This document shows, piece after piece, positions 26,652 through 37,252 of a stretch of 64,000 bases of DNA. Source of the DNA: Halalkalicoccus tibetensis (GTDB taxonomy: Archaea; Halobacteriota; Halobacteria; Halobacteriales; Halalkalicoccaceae); the NCBI RefSeq assembly GCF_037996645.1, contig NZ_JBBMXV010000002.1, positions 372,001-436,000 on the forward strand, read 5' to 3'. The number at the start of each line of letters is the position of its first letter. The stretch's first letter is position 1. The position numbers and the translations under genes were made by a program. A model generated the notes under the pieces. That model was not told the DNA's origin and did not search any database. It saw nothing but the letters and a program-made list of their open reading frames with translations.

Positions 26652-28046
26652 ATGACACACGTCGCGATCGTCGGCGCCTACGGCAGCGCCGGCGTCGCCG
26701 TTGCGGAGTCACTGGCCGACAGGGGCGTCGAGCTGACCCTGATCGACGACGGCGACCCGGGCGGCGGGCTCTGTATCCTCCGGGGCTGTATGCCCTCGAA
26801 AGAGGTGCTTTCGGCCGCAGCTCACCGGTTCCAGGCCCGCCACGACAACCGGCTCTCCGGGATCCCCGAGGTCGACATCGGGGCGGTCGTCGAGCGAAAG
26901 GACCGCCAGGTCTCGGAGTTCGCCGAACACCGCCGTGACGCGGTCCACGAGCTCGCCGAGCGCGAGAACGTCGAGTTCATCCACGAGACGGCGCGCTTCG
27001 TCGACTCGCATACCCTCGCGGTCGGCGATCGGGAGATCGAGGCCGACTACGTCGTGATCGCGACCGGCTCGACGGTGAACGTCCCCGACCTCCCGGGGAT
27101 CGACGAGGTCGATCCCATGACCAGCGCGGACGTCCTCGATACGACGGAGTTCCCCGACTCGGGGATCGTCATGGGCTTCGGCTACGTCGGCCTCGAACTC
27201 GTCCCCTATCTCTCGGAGGCCGCCGGGATGGAGCTCACCGTCATCGAGCACGACGAGCGGCCGATCGACGAGGCCCCCCCAGGGTACGGCGACACCGTTC
27301 TCGACCTCTACCGCGAGCAGTTCGGGATCGAGGTGCTGACGGACGCGACCGAGCGTTCGGTCGAGCGGGGCGAGGACGGCGGGGTCCGCATGGAGGTCGA
27401 ACACGACGGGAGGACGGAGAGCCTCGAGGCCGACCAGCTGTTCGCGTTCACCGGCCGGAAGCCGAACCTAGACGGGCTGGGGCTCGAGAACACCGACCTC
27501 TCGCCTGAGGAGGGCTGGGTCGAGGACACGATGCGGGCACGCGACGACCCTCATACGTTCGTCGTCGGGGACGCCAACGGCCGCGAGCCGATCCTCCACG
27601 TCGCGAAGGAGCAGGGCTATCACGCCGCGGACAACCTCGTCGCCCACAAAGCGGGCCGCGAGCTGCTGCCCTACGAGAACGTCGTCCACCGCGTGATCTT
27701 CAGCGGGCTGGGGGTGTATCCGTTCGCCCGCGTCGGCCACACCGAGGAGAGCGCCCGCGAGGAGGGGTACGACCCGGAGGTCGTCACCCGCGCGGCCGCC
27801 AGCGACGGCGTGTTCAAGGTGAAGGACGTCCCCGAGGGGCTCGCGACGCTCGTGGTCGCACAGGACGGGACTGTGCTCGGCTACCAAGGGCTACACCACC
27901 ACGCCGACTCGATGGCCAAGACGATGCAGATCGTCGTCGAGCTCGGGCTGGACGTCCGGGAGCTACCTGATAGAGCGTATCACCCGACGCTGCCGGAGAT
28001 CCTCGACGGGCTGTTCCGGGAGACGAGCGCCCGGCTAGACGGATAG
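26652..28046 (+). CDS. FAD/NAD-dependent disulfide oxidoreductase (dihydrolipoamide dehydrogenase family)
   Basis: 464 residues. The FAD-binding start is variant, IVGAYGSAGVAVAE instead of GxGxxG. The redox disulfide is CILRGCMPSK, the CxxxxC motif of class I pyridine-nucleotide disulfide reductases with Ile-Leu-Arg in place of the common Val-Asn-Val. VIATGST, VMGFGYVGLEL (NAD site), FVVGDANG and a C-terminal dimerisation domain with a His-containing YHPTLPEIL are present. Not in an oxo-acid dehydrogenase operon, so lipoamide may not be its substrate; mercuric or other disulfide reductases are alternatives. Confidence 0.88.
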   Translation: MTHVAIVGAYGSAGVAVAESLADRGVELTLIDDGDPGGGLCILRGCMPSKEVLSAAAHRFQARHDNRLSGIPEVDIGAVVERKDRQVSEFAEHRRDAVHELAERENVEFIHETARFVDSHTLAVGDREIEADYVVIATGSTVNVPDLPGIDEVDPMTSADVLDTTEFPDSGIVMGFGYVGLELVPYLSEAAGMELTVIEHDERPIDEAPPGYGDTVLDLYREQFGIEVLTDATERSVERGEDGGVRMEVEHDGRTESLEADQLFAFTGRKPNLDGLGLENTDLSPEEGWVEDTMRARDDPHTFVVGDANGREPILHVAKEQGYHAADNLVAHKAGRELLPYENVVHRVIFSGLGVYPFARVGHTEESAREEGYDPEVVTRAAASDGVFKVKDVPEGLATLVVAQDGTVLGYQGLHHHADSMAKTMQIVVELGLDVRELPDRAYHPTLPEILDGLFRETSARLDG

Positions 28047-28077
28047 TCGCGGTTCACGGTAGTGGCGGCCGGCACGA

Positions 28078-28329
28078 GCGGAGCCGTCACTTCCGACGGC
28101 TCCGCGAGTGGGGCGGGGAAGGGCTGGTTCACTCGGGAGCGGCGCGTGACCGCGCGTCGCGACCCGGCGGTACCTGGTGGTCCTCGGAAATCTTCGATTT
28201 CCGGGATCTCGCGGGAACGGGGTTCCCGCGGACCTCGCGGCGACGTCGTCGCCGCTCAGCCCGAAAAGACCGCGAAGCGGTCTTTTCTTGGGACATGAAA
28301 AGGGCGAGGGCTGGCTGCCAAGCCAGCCC
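28078..28329. repeat. Intergenic hairpin array A (homologous to array B at 34.9 kb)
   Basis: Between two convergent genes lie seven consecutive inverted repeats: 28078-28105 (11-bp stem), about 28139-28161 (imperfect), 28185-28203 (CGGAAATC/GATTTCCG), 28211-28229, 28237-28255, 28263-28287 (11-bp stem, GAA loop) and 28308-28329 (9-bp stem). Array B shares five of them in the same order, including the 28171-28205 block, which is identical except for its first base. The last hairpin abuts the stop of the minus-strand flavoprotein and, followed by T-rich sequence, may end transcription in both directions. Confidence 0.85.
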
Positions 28330-28337
28330 GAGGGCTT

Positions 28338-28958
28338 TCATCCGAAGTTCTCGACCTTCGCGTCGTCGGGGTCGCCGCCGGCGTCCTCGAGGGCGTCGAG
28401 CGCCTCGGTGACGAACTCCTGGAAGCCGTAGACGAAGACCTGCTGGCCGTCGTAGTAGCTCGCGACGTGGTCGGCCAGTTCGTCGGTGACGACGACGGTC
28501 GCGCCCGCCCCCTGAAGCTCGGCCAGCCGGTCCTCGTGGACGGGCTCGTCGTCGCAGTAGACGACCGTGGCGTCGTTGCCGTCGGCCAGCGCGCGCTCGC
28601 CGATGCCGACCGCGGGGCCGACGCCCGGCCCGCCCGCGAGGATCAGCGAGTCGGGTTCGTCCTCGTAGTAGGCGCTGCCGTAGGGGCCCTCGACGGTGAC
28701 GGTCTCGCCCTCGGCGTCGACGATCCACGGCCCGAGCTCGCCCTCGGGGTCGATCCCGATGGTGGTCTCGAAGGTCTCGCCGACGTCGGGCGACGAGAGG
28801 GTGTAGAAGCGCGAGACGTGCTCGCCGTCGACGTCGGTCGACAGTTTGACGAACTGGCCGGGCCGCGCGTCGAAGCCCTCGGGGGTCTCGAGGTCGACCG
28901 CGACGGTGTCGCTGCCGACGTCCCTGACCGCCTCGATCGTCACGTCAGTGGGTTCCAT
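28338..28958 (-). CDS. FAD/NAD(P)-binding oxidoreductase (ferredoxin-NADP reductase-like)
   Basis: 206 residues from the ATG at 28958. The N-terminal beta-barrel carries RFYTLSSPD (flavin-binding RxYT) and the second domain LILAGGPGVGPAVGIG for NAD(P) binding, then VVYCDDEPVHEDRL. C-terminal GFQEFVTEALDAL resembles the FNR tail. No ferredoxin domain is attached. It is divergent from the 2-oxoacid:ferredoxin oxidoreductase genes 224 nt away, which makes ferredoxin or another low-potential carrier a reasonable partner. Confidence 0.88.
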   Translation of the reverse strand: MEPTDVTIEAVRDVGSDTVAVDLETPEGFDARPGQFVKLSTDVDGEHVSRFYTLSSPDVGETFETTIGIDPEGELGPWIVDAEGETVTVEGPYGSAYYEDEPDSLILAGGPGVGPAVGIGERALADGNDATVVYCDDEPVHEDRLAELQGAGATVVVTDELADHVASYYDGQQVFVYGFQEFVTEALDALEDAGGDPDDAKVENFG

Positions 28959-29182
28959 GTCCGGGGATACCCGCGGTTCGAACAAAGGGCTTCCCCTCCC
29001 CGACGGCCCTGCCGAGGGTACGACGGCCGGGTCGTCCCGACCGGTTGGGGGCGTCGGTAGAGGGTGGCATATCGGCGCCCCGGCCTCCGACGTCCCGTAG
29101 TCGGCTGCTTGCGCCGGCAAGCGGGCAGCAAAGGGCGGTTACGGAAGGCTTTTTGTCCGCGGCCGGGCTACCCCTAACCCAC

Positions 29183-32379: not shown

Positions 32380-32408
32380 CCGGCGCGGCGAAGCCGCGCC
32401 GGCTTTTT
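32380..32408 (+). terminator. Intrinsic terminator-like hairpin after mce
   Basis: A 10-bp perfect GC stem with GAA loop (32380-32389/32393-32402) is followed by C and TTTTT (32404-32408). It is the first hairpin of array C and lies 118 nt after the mce stop in the convergent space before EF-2. Confidence 0.65.
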
Positions 32409-32510
32409 GTCGCCGGAAATCTCAGATTTCCGGCTGCTAACCAGAACGCGAAGCGTTCTGGTGATGGAGGAGATTTTTCGAGAGAGGTGTGCGAACGAAG
32501 TGAGCACACC
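32380..32510. repeat. Intergenic hairpin array C
   Basis: Four hairpins occupy the convergent gap between mce and EF-2: 32380-32402, 32412-32434 (GCCGGAAATC/GATTTCCGGC), 32441-32461 (9-bp stem, GAA loop) and 32486-32510 (GGTGTGC stem, loop GAACGAAGTGA). The second shares its CGGAAATC/GATTTCCG core with hairpins of arrays A and B. The loop of the fourth resembles sequences found beside the tRNA-Arg copies. Confidence 0.8.
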
Positions 32511-34719: not shown

Positions 34720-34860
34720 TACCGTCTTATATCGGAAGCGGGGTGAAAAGGGTAGTGTTTCGGCCCCGTTGCGGCGAATGCGGGAGGTGAAGCGAACCGC
34801 AGTGTTTCGGTGAGCGACACGGGAGCGAGGATCTTCAGGAACGGGGAGGAGGGCCCACTC

Positions 34861-35105
34861 TCGATGGCGACCATCGAATCCTCGTCCCACTTCGATGGCC
34901 GGTTCGAGCGGAGCCGCCACTCACGGCGGCTCTGCGAGTAGGGCGGGGGAGGGCTGGCGCCCTGAGAGCGGCGCGTGATCACGCGCCGCGACTCGGCGGC
35001 ACCTGGTGGTCCTCGGAAATCTTCGATTTCCGGGACCCAGAAAGGCCGCTTCGCGGCCTTTCTTAGCGACATAAAAAGGGCGAGGGCTGGCTGCCAAGCC
35101 AGCCC
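34861..35105. repeat. Intergenic hairpin array B (homologous to array A)
   Basis: Six hairpins in a row: 34861-34877 (TCGATGG-CGA-CCATCGA), 34908-34935, 34968-34989 (a perfect 22-nt palindrome), 35014-35032 (CGGAAATC/GATTTCCG, same as in array A), 35040-35062 (10-bp stem) and 35084-35105 (same stem as in A). Relative to array A the stems carry paired changes and two hairpins are missing. It sits between the EF-2 start and the stop of the TauE-like gene. Confidence 0.85.
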
Positions 35106-35114
35106 GAGGGCTTT

Positions 35115-35882
35115 TCAGAGCAGCAGCGTCGGCGCCACCACGATCAGGACGACCCCCAGGATCACCCGCAGCCGGCCGGGATCGACCAGGTGGGCGACCT
35201 TCCAGCCGGCGACGACGCCGATCAGCTGGGGGATCCCCACGAGCAGCGCGACGGGGATCGACACCGCGCCCGCGAGCGCGTAGCTGGCGGCCGCGAACCC
35301 GGAGATGAACACCGACTGGACCTGCGCGACCGCGACGGCCACGAGCATCGGCACCCCGAGGACCACGAGGATCGGCACGGCGACGACGGGGCCGCCGACC
35401 CCGAGCAGCCCGCCGAGCACCCCGACCCCGAAGCCGATCGAGCCGATCAGGATCCGGCGCTGGCGGTCGGGGACGGCGTCGAGGCGGTTCGAGGGGCGCA
35501 GCCCGACTCGCTCGCGATAGACGATCACGCCGCCGATGCAGGCGACGAACGCCGATAGCAGGTAGCCGAAGACCGCCTCGGGCAACAGGAGGTTGAGCTG
35601 CGAGCCCGCGAGCGCGCCGAGGATGCTCGTCACGCTGAGAACGATCGCCATCTCGCGGGCGTGGCCCTGTGCGAACTCGCCCGACTGGAGGTAGACGAGG
35701 CTTCCCAGGAGGCCGGTCGCGACGAACGTCGCGCTGGCGGTGCCCGCGACCTCCGCGGTCGAGAGCGGCGACAGCGCGAACAGCGCGATCGTGACGAAGA
35801 CGCCGCCGGGGCCGATCGCGGTGATCCCGACGCCGGCGAACAGCGCGATCAGCGCGAGGAGGGCGGCGAGTTCGGGGGACAC
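35115..35882 (-). CDS. TauE/SafE-family membrane transporter
   Basis: 255 residues from a GTG at 35882 (reading VSPELAALL); no ATG precedes the first membrane segment in frame. About eight hydrophobic helices arranged as two repeats: GITAIGPGGVFVTIALF in the first and GGLLGVGGPVVAVPILVVLG in the second, the doubled glycine-rich signature of TauE/SafE (DUF81) exporters of sulfite, sulfoacetate or other organic anions. The substrate is not evident. Its 3' end abuts hairpin array B. Confidence 0.88.
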   Translation of the reverse strand: MSPELAALLALIALFAGVGITAIGPGGVFVTIALFALSPLSTAEVAGTASATFVATGLLGSLVYLQSGEFAQGHAREMAIVLSVTSILGALAGSQLNLLLPEAVFGYLLSAFVACIGGVIVYRERVGLRPSNRLDAVPDRQRRILIGSIGFGVGVLGGLLGVGGPVVAVPILVVLGVPMLVAVAVAQVQSVFISGFAAASYALAGAVSIPVALLVGIPQLIGVVAGWKVAHLVDPGRLRVILGVVLIVVAPTLLL

Positions 35883-35983
35883 TGTCGGGCGAAAACGGCC
35901 GGGGGTAATACGTCTGGTGGTCGGTGCGCGTCGTCGTTGGGGAGCCGCTCCGACGGGATCCCGGGACGCGGTCGGTCGACGGC

Positions 35984-37252
35984 CTACAGCCCGCCGCCGA
36001 AGAGCATGTCGATGAAGTCCTGCACCGCGAGCACCGCGAGGACGATCGCGAGCAGGACGAGCGCCGCGTTGACGGCGTTGTACTTCAGCGTGTTCGTGTG
36101 CTCGCCCATCGTCTCGCGGTCGTTGACCGCCCAGAACAGCAACGCCGCGGCCAGCGGCAGCCCGAAGATGCCGTTGTAGGTCGGGAACAGCACGACCATG
36201 TCGACGACGCCGAGGCCGAGCGTGGAGGCGACCAACGGCGAGAACACGCCGAAGCTCGTCCCGCCGACGAAGATGAGCTTGAACAGCCGGCTCTCCTTGG
36301 TCGGCTCCTCGCCCATCGCCTGCGGGATGATGTAGGCGGGCGTCCACATGATCGGGATGATGCTGTTGAACGCCGCGGCGGCGGTCCCGGCGACGAAGAG
36401 GATCATCGCCCACGCGCCGAACACCTCGACGAGCGCCTCGCCGGGCGTGATGAACGACTCGAGGGTGGTGTAGCCCAGCGCGGGCAGGAGCGCGGCGGCG
36501 ACGATCAGGATCGCCATCGTCGTGATCCCTCCCACCGTATAGCCGACCGCGAGGTCCTTTCGCATCGTCGAGAGGTCGGATTCAGTGGTCCAGCCCTTCT
36601 TCTCGACGAGGATCGACTCGAGGAAGAAGTTGGGCCAGAGCGCGGTCGTCCCGAGCAGCCCGGCCGCGACGGTGAGCGCGGCGGTGTTGGGCACCGTCGG
36701 GACGAACCCGGTCGCGACCGCCGTCGGGTCCGCGCCGCTCGGGATCATGACGATCAGGAACATCGCCATCAGCGCGAGCATCATCGCGATCATGAAGTTC
36801 TCGACGAGGTCGTAGTTCAGCAGGCCGACCCCCATCGCGACGAACGTCGTCACGACCGCGACCGGCTGCCAGGCGACCGCCCCGCCGGTGACGAACTGGA
36901 CGGCTGCCCCGACCGCGGCGACCAGGCCGATGGTCCAGGCGACACAGCCGATCGAGAGGAACAGCGCGACGGCCGTCGCGCCGCCCCGCCCGAGCTTGCG
37001 CCTGACGAACACCATCAACGAGGTGCCGTGGATGCCGAGCCGGGCACTCATGTCCTGGGCCATGAAGCCCAGCAGCGCCGCGCCGACGACCGCCCACAGC
37101 AGGGTGTAGCCGTGTGCGACGCCGGCCTGGCTCGCGATGAACACCGAGCCGGAGCCGAAGTAGCTCGCGACCATCACGAACGCGAGCCCGTATTCCTTGA
37201 TTACCGCCGATACCCCGCCGAGCCGACCGCGTGACGTGTGATCCGTTGCCAT
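35984..37252 (-). CDS. NRAMP-superfamily transporter lacking the canonical metal-site motifs
   Basis: 422 residues from the ATG at 37252, with about 11 membrane spans. The fold and spacing match NRAMP (divalent metal-proton symporters). However, the TM1 DPGN motif is replaced by GSGSVFIASQAG, and the TM6 MPH motif is replaced by the region ALWPNFFLES. Transition-metal selectivity is therefore doubtful; Mg- or organic-substrate-transporting NRAMP relatives show similar losses. The flanking 3' gene is another transporter, but a 101-nt gap separates them. Confidence 0.8.
   Translation of the reverse strand: MATDHTSRGRLGGVSAVIKEYGLAFVMVASYFGSGSVFIASQAGVAHGYTLLWAVVGAALLGFMAQDMSARLGIHGTSLMVFVRRKLGRGGATAVALFLSIGCVAWTIGLVAAVGAAVQFVTGGAVAWQPVAVVTTFVAMGVGLLNYDLVENFMIAMMLALMAMFLIVMIPSGADPTAVATGFVPTVPNTAALTVAAGLLGTTALWPNFFLESILVEKKGWTTESDLSTMRKDLAVGYTVGGITTMAILIVAAALLPALGYTTLESFITPGEALVEVFGAWAMILFVAGTAAAAFNSIIPIMWTPAYIIPQAMGEEPTKESRLFKLIFVGGTSFGVFSPLVASTLGLGVVDMVVLFPTYNGIFGLPLAAALLFWAVNDRETMGEHTNTLKYNAVNAALVLLAIVLAVLAVQDFIDMLFGGGL

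Follow-up and report, generated by a model that had tools for sequence, protein, structure and literature searches.

RESULTS

Paired differences between two hairpin arrays

The window analyzed here, the whole 64,000-nucleotide stretch from Halalkalicoccus tibetensis, contains two hairpin arrays, A and B, whose hairpins follow one another in the same order (Table 1). An earlier note had read the differences between them as paired changes that indicate selection for, or copying of, base-paired structure. The question is what these arrays are and how their stems came to differ while remaining paired.

Table 1. Arrays A and B, their parts and their neighboring genes, by position in the window
Feature	Position	Strand	Details
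Gene left of array A	26652-28046	+	pyridine nucleotide-disulphide oxidoreductase
Array A	28062-28339	+	long form of the element: hp1, hp2, hp3-hp6 block, hp7
hp1 of A	28078-28105	+	GCGGAGCCGTC-ACTTCC-GACGGCTCCGC; flanks CAC-GA ... GA-GTG
Scaffold linker of A	28106-28138	+	GAGTGGGGCGGGGAAGGGCTGG...
hp2 of A	28139-28160	+	one G-T pair
hp3 of A	28185-28203	+	cassette GGAAATC-TTC-GATTTCC
hp4 and hp5 of A	28210-28255	+	both missing from array B
hp6 of A	28263-28287	+	GAAAAGACCGC-GAA-GCGGTCTTTTC
hp7 module of A	28293-28339	+	ACATGAAAAGGGCGA-(9 bp-GCCA-9 bp)-GAGGGCTTTC; covariance model R1
Gene right of array A	28338-29120	-	FAD-binding oxidoreductase
Gene left of array B	start near 34738	-	EF-2
Array B	34897-35115	+	hp1, hp2, hp3, hp6, hp7
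hp1 of B	34908-34935	+	
hp2 of B	34968-34989	+	all pairs Watson-Crick, against one G-T pair in A
hp3 of B	35014-35032	+	identical to hp3 of A
hp6 of B	35039-35063	+	
hp7 module of B	35069-35115	+	CATAAAAA ... CTTTT; outer pair A-T (G-C in A)
Gene right of array B	35115-36413	-	TauE-family

Reading the arrays base by base confirmed that the hp1 pair T28087/A28096 of A is C34917/G34926 in B. In the AAAGACC stem of hp6, A28269-T28281 is likewise replaced by G35045-C35057, the loop is GAA in A and TTC in B, and two more outer pairs differ in paired fashion (GA..TC versus AG..CT). The two additional hairpins reported for array A are present at 28210-28230 and 28237-28255. The block described as identical apart from its first base had been placed one base too far to the left in A: 28172-28206 equals 35001-35035, and base 28171 corresponds to 35000. 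The 3' hairpin hp7, GGGCTGGCT-GCCA-AGCCAGCCC, is identical in the two arrays, and hp1 and hp2 are likewise common to both. The window holds 30 perfect hairpins (stem of at least 8 bp, loop of 3 to 6), compared with 13.6 in third-order Markov sequences, and 11 of the 30 fall within arrays A and B. RNA folding gave z scores of -6.4 for A and -6.9 for B, and 0 shuffles were equally stable.

A modular element in Halobacteriales

When the own genome was searched with each array, matches were found at about 20 places, with many more in relatives. Arrays A and B are among some 20 to 25 copies per genome of an intergenic element of about 150 to 290 bp with the conserved scaffold GTGGCCGG / CGGGGAAGGGCTGG / CCTGGTGGACATGAAAAGGGCGA / GAGGGCTTTC. 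Comparison of 72 copies gave the order of the 5' half on the + strand as GTGGCCGGCGCGA, hp1 (often with a 6-nt loop), GAGCGGGGCGGGGAAGGGCTGG...GA, hp2 and ...CCTGGTGG; this is followed by an optional hp3-hp6 block, ACATGAAAAGGGCGA, hp7 and GAGGGCTTTC. The optional block reads TCCT, hp3, GGATCT, hp4, GACCTC, hp5, TCAGCCC, hp6, TTGGG, and many copies have a compact form (hp1, hp2 and hp7; about 150 to 165 nt). In an alignment of 33 copies, the CGGGG and GG columns of the linker GAGTGGGGCGGGGAAGGGCTGG... are invariant or nearly so. Some copies carry extra hairpins inside the hp2 or hp7 loops (L110, L120, L100, and L127), and others have tandem hp7 modules (L005, L082, and L200). As aligned, these copies show a scaffold of predicted unpaired linkers that carries three regular hairpins (hp1, hp2, and hp7) and the optional hp3-hp6 block.

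The earlier note had proposed a covariance-model search for further members. Model R1 matched 58 of 194 Halobacteriales genomes, and in a phylum-wide sample it matched 16 of 296 genomes, all of the same order. When 84,980 species were scanned for an exact pattern, all matches came from haloarchaea or archaeal metagenome-assembled genomes, with Halalkalicoccus, Halococcus, Halapricum, Haloprofundus, Halobium, Halegenticoccus, Halorussus, and Natrinema among the genera. Halalkalicoccus genomes have 8 to 24 model matches each (20 in the own genome, G000, 24 in G001, and 8 in G002), and in some other families each genome has just one copy. No matches were present in the plasmid and phage collections searched, and all 11 matches in genome G004 lie on its largest replicon. 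Rfam 15 gave 0 families at the gathering threshold and none that was meaningful at E values up to 1, the sole match being one unrelated 20-bit chance match. We found no account of the element in the openly licensed literature, and the family has apparently been undescribed so far.

Copies at shared gene borders

When 138 copies were sorted according to the genes on either side, about 18 loci proved common to several species, several of them also common to other families. The copy retained most widely lies behind the gene for the archaeal termination factor aCPSF1, which was identified by TIGR03675 (814.8 bits; cut-off, 580). The element stands after this gene in six Halalkalicoccus species and in G052 and G080 of family f7, and it also follows aCPSF1 in Natrinema and in G016, G067, G157, G192, G200, and G203. 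Genomes of the Natrialbaceae-like family f8 that have a match contain exactly one copy, which was directly behind the aCPSF1 gene in those inspected. The glutamate dehydrogenase (GdhB) locus is common to the own genus, Halococcus, and family f7; further cross-family loci are gyrB and a ...RRYQM gene (family f5). Judged by their flanking genes, copies have stayed at the same borders in different species and, in the case of several loci, in different families.

The array A locus is present in G000, G001, G003, G004, and G006. In two sister species, G003 and G004, the copy there shares its hp7 stem with array A but is without the hp3-hp6 block, which confirms, at an orthologous locus, the earlier proposal that arrays grow or shrink by whole hairpins. 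A search for an empty site at array A gave no clean junction, since G002 and G007 have another gene on the left. Taken together, arrays A and B are best explained as members of one ancient, chromosomal, noncoding element family of Halobacteriales.

Conservation of the fold and the folding strand

Next, we examined whether stem pairing is conserved. Alignment A1 comprises 62 distinct hp7 modules; stem pairing played no part in their selection, although the flanks served as the search pattern. A standard pair is formed in 93.2% of pair cells, compared with 69.5% (standard deviation, 1.0) after shuffling and at most 48% after sliding. Paired changes in the family lie far above both controls, and with further members found by the covariance model, the idea of the earlier note withstood both of the conditions set for its refutation. 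In most of the 62 copies, hp7 has a stem of exactly 9 bp and a GCCA loop. Ten pairs changed on both sides, including the outer G-C to A-U change that also distinguishes array A from array B. With alignment A2 (33 compact copies from several families), RNAalifold recovered hp1, its CGC/GCG collar, and hp7 de novo, with double changes at 20 of 32 pairs. Covariation beyond shuffled and slid controls, as expected of a structured noncoding RNA, was observed. These alignments show that the predicted fold, and not the stem sequence, is what is conserved.

The remaining mismatches are asymmetric between strands. Purine-purine mismatches outnumber pyrimidine-pyrimidine mismatches 58 to 12 (p = 2e-8, counted on copies); by stem type, the hp7 counts are 12 and 3, and tandem mismatches in hp7 are GA/GA in 23 cases and TC/TC in 0. 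This excess implies that the + strand is the strand that must fold. G-T and A-C mismatches did not differ significantly (36:28, p = 0.38), unlike in ordinary structured RNA, and therefore ordinary RNA wobble tolerance is not visible; an early excess of G-T over A-C (29:11) was lost with the larger, deduplicated data. A kink-turn or box C/D assignment of the GA/GA motif was rejected because the 3-nt bulge is missing. A small open reading frame, ATGAAAAGG..., was also rejected because its ATG is not conserved (CATA and CATT variants in A1).

Replacement of whole hairpins

To follow the stems over time, we used 39 within-genus ortholog pairs with a codable facing gene. In these pairs, linkers and loop are 94% identical, compared with 68% at fourfold-degenerate sites. 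Identity of the hp7 stem was 0.89 to 1.00 in 7 pairs, at most 0.45 in 24, and between these values in 8; the background between unrelated loci is 0.39. At the aCPSF1 locus, for example, one stem is common to G000, G001, and G006 and another to G002 and G003. We distinguished 38 stem types for hp1, 24 for hp2, and 35 for hp7, and the common types are found at as many as 9 loci and in as many as 6 species. The L097 hairpin has the left arm of one stem type and the right arm of another. As read from these comparisons, copies come to differ largely because whole hairpins are exchanged for others from a pool, and whole hairpins are also gained and lost. Some gradual stem change also occurs, as the 8 intermediate ortholog pairs indicate.

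Sharing of hp7 stems within a genome was not above that in a permutation that keeps loci (p = 0.46). Hence, donors of hp7 stems are not traceable, and genome-specific gene conversion of hp7 was rejected on the same test. Gene conversion and ectopic recombination are common in polyploid haloarchaea. Homologous linkers would allow either process to swap the hairpin between them, and copies with a broken fold would then be lost. Given the identical hp7 and hp3, the differences between A and B are probably in part the outcome of copying. That the fold persists between families whose stems are unrelated implies that selection is needed as well. Both halves of the earlier proposal, selection and copying, therefore apply: the former accords with the fixed 9-bp length, the GCCA loop, and a fold kept across families, the latter with the mostly all-or-none replacement of orthologous stems, the stem types common to nonorthologous loci, and the half-and-half L097 hairpin.

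Position relative to neighboring genes

Codon-position composition assigned the left and right genes of 24 loci to strands (-,-) in 9, (+,-) in 7, (-,+) in 6, and (+,+) in 2 cases. In 16 of the 24 loci the element faces a gene, the stop codon of which is usually fused to the element's 3' end or a few bases from it. Of 60 copies, 52 have the stop of the facing gene between -3 and +5 nt from the end of the element, and most of these stops share one reading frame, which the distances -2, +1, and +4 preserve (about 13 of 16 loci, p = 1e-4). The last two bases of a TGA stop are supplied by the element in 27 facing genes, and at array A the last bases of the hp7 module form the TGA (28338-28340) of the facing gene. 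Only a stop codon or a promoter separates the element from its right-hand gene. A spacer that wore to nothing while the element stayed argues that the element is useful.

At a peptidase-like locus (L014, L076, L088, L111, and L220), an open frame extends into the element and has its stop codon within the hp7 stem, at a position in the hairpin that varies by species. In two Halorussus species (L153, 1890-2040, and L154), the hp7 module lies between direct repeats of about 35 bp of an acyl-CoA dehydrogenase-like 3' end. Most of the differences between the two repeats are synonymous, as would be expected had both been kept as coding ends.

Base composition upstream of 57 copies from the genus revealed no conserved TATA box or promoter, and an independent RNA gene with its own promoter was rejected for want of a TATA peak. 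Nor is the placement that of an intrinsic terminator: at 6 of the 24 loci the two neighboring genes diverge and would need no terminator, which does not agree with a plain terminator role.

DISCUSSION

The explanation that we tentatively prefer, at somewhat less than an even chance for the whole, is that of an ancient, fold-conserved family with swappable hairpins that likely serves as a gene-boundary element. In the weakest step of this proposal, the folded + strand and/or the complementary transcript would end or insulate transcription between neighbors. It is possible, though doubtful, that the copies represent a new class of folded archaeal boundary elements made of a conserved scaffold and interchangeable cassettes that copies exchange as units, in which the shape (length, loop, and purine mismatches on one strand) is selected and inherited and the stem sequence is not, and that they may mark transcript ends for aCPSF1; the latter idea comes from the position of the most widely retained copy behind the aCPSF1 gene.

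Mobile DNA offers a different account, a serious rival though in our judgment an unlikely one, in which REP/BIME- or MITE-like copies are immobile relics of transposons (e.g., of the single-strand IS200/IS605 kind) and the folded top strand was once the transposase substrate. The copies are indeed dispersed and intergenic in all gene orientations, the + strand folds, the 3' module occurs in modular tandem copies (L005, L082, and L200), and a Halorussus copy is flanked by the ~35-bp direct repeat of a gene end, a direct repeat being seen in Halorussus only. However, the Y1/RAYT transposase (PF01797) is absent from the own genome and from G001 and G002, near-identical full copies are very rare, and no terminal inverted repeat was recognized, since GTGGCC at one end and CTTTC at the other do not form one. 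The absence of matches from plasmid and phage collections and from outside the main chromosome in G004, and the retention of the same loci across families, also speak against it. A TnpB right end or omega RNA was rejected because 8 TnpB-family loci of the own genome are without the scaffold, two of them having isolated single-motif matches only. Haloarchaeal PATEs and MITEs (Haloquadratum) are small, dispersed, palindrome-containing elements, and PATEs are transposon derivatives. The present element differs from them in having no terminal inverted repeat and no transposase relative found here.

Bacterial REP/BIME/REPIN sequences (GTAG and CGTC families) are likewise short, multicopy extragenic palindromes that lie between genes of any relative orientation, with stems of 5 to 13 bp whose sequences changed between families (PMC3733652). 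The haloarchaeal element, in contrast, is about 150 to 290 nt long, has a fixed scaffold with three to seven hairpins that differ from one another, has only about 25 copies, occupies cross-family loci, and varies its stems copy by copy. A REP-RAYT system was rejected because the copy-rich genomes G000, G001, and G002 have no Y1 transposase and because the hairpin feet are CGA...GAG, not GTAG or CGTC (alignments A1 and A2). In Rickettsia palindromic elements and organelle repetitive hairpin elements, hairpin units insert and spread, some inside genes (see PMC2800124). What marks those repeated hairpins is their conserved sequence; in the present element, conservation is in the linkers, and one hairpin can take the place of another.

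That the + strand acts in trans as a small noncoding or 3'-UTR-derived RNA, through a protein recognizing linkers and hairpin geometry, we consider unlikely, although it is a serious rival. Conserved single-stranded linkers, the fixed 9-bp stem, the GCCA tetraloop, tandem G-A pairs, compensatory changes, and the folding z scores of both arrays (-6.4 and -6.9) are what such an RNA would have, but we found no conserved promoter at a fixed distance, no significant G-U excess, and no Rfam match, and convergent loci with spacers of about 20 nt leave little room. The element resembles Rfam families in its covariation-supported predicted fold with conserved loops and linkers. Pure DNA mechanics, in which template switching at quasi-palindromes perfects hairpins and yields paired changes without a selected function, seems very improbable and is largely refuted as the whole story. 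It would account for the very few mismatches despite turnover and for loops in both orientations (TTC/GAA, and an inverted GCCA loop in L104), and it may contribute to stem perfection. It leaves unexplained the linkers' 94% identity against 68%, the fixed stem length and loop, the tolerated GA/GA mismatches, the strand asymmetry, and the retention of loci across families.

The element represents a natural extreme, absent from the RNA family library, in which structure is kept and stem sequence replaced across a whole archaeal class. Its many orthologous and paralogous copies allow one to ask whether compensatory change proceeds base by base or by block replacement, a question that bears on every covariation-based inference of RNA structure. 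Should it prove to be a boundary element, a new component would be added to the transcription architecture of archaea.

Other hairpin strings were seen alongside the family. A third string in the window (32380-32462) has three perfect 10-bp triloop hairpins and belongs to a different family; strings resembling it precede MCM-like genes (L034 and L084), joined there to the 5' domain of arrays A and B, and EF-2 in genome G001 (L230). The hp3 hairpin GGAAATC-NNN-GATTTCC (28186-28202 and 35015-35031) is a dispersed haloarchaeal cassette, found in 26 of 59 genomes, with as many as 11 copies in one genome and none for the reversed control, in several distinct array families and with triloops in both orientations. 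In the own genome, a string of about six hairpins immediately follows a tRNA-like gene (L035, 1390-1590; C2 near 465.1 kb), and hairpin-forming insertions, judged by eye, apparently lie within the 3' part of a hemB-like frame (L039, 1555-1700; C3 near 102.5 kb). Hairpin-like additions are also known from the genus in another setting: an expansion of 108 nt is present in the 5S rRNA of Halococcus and Halalkalicoccus (PMC7812874).
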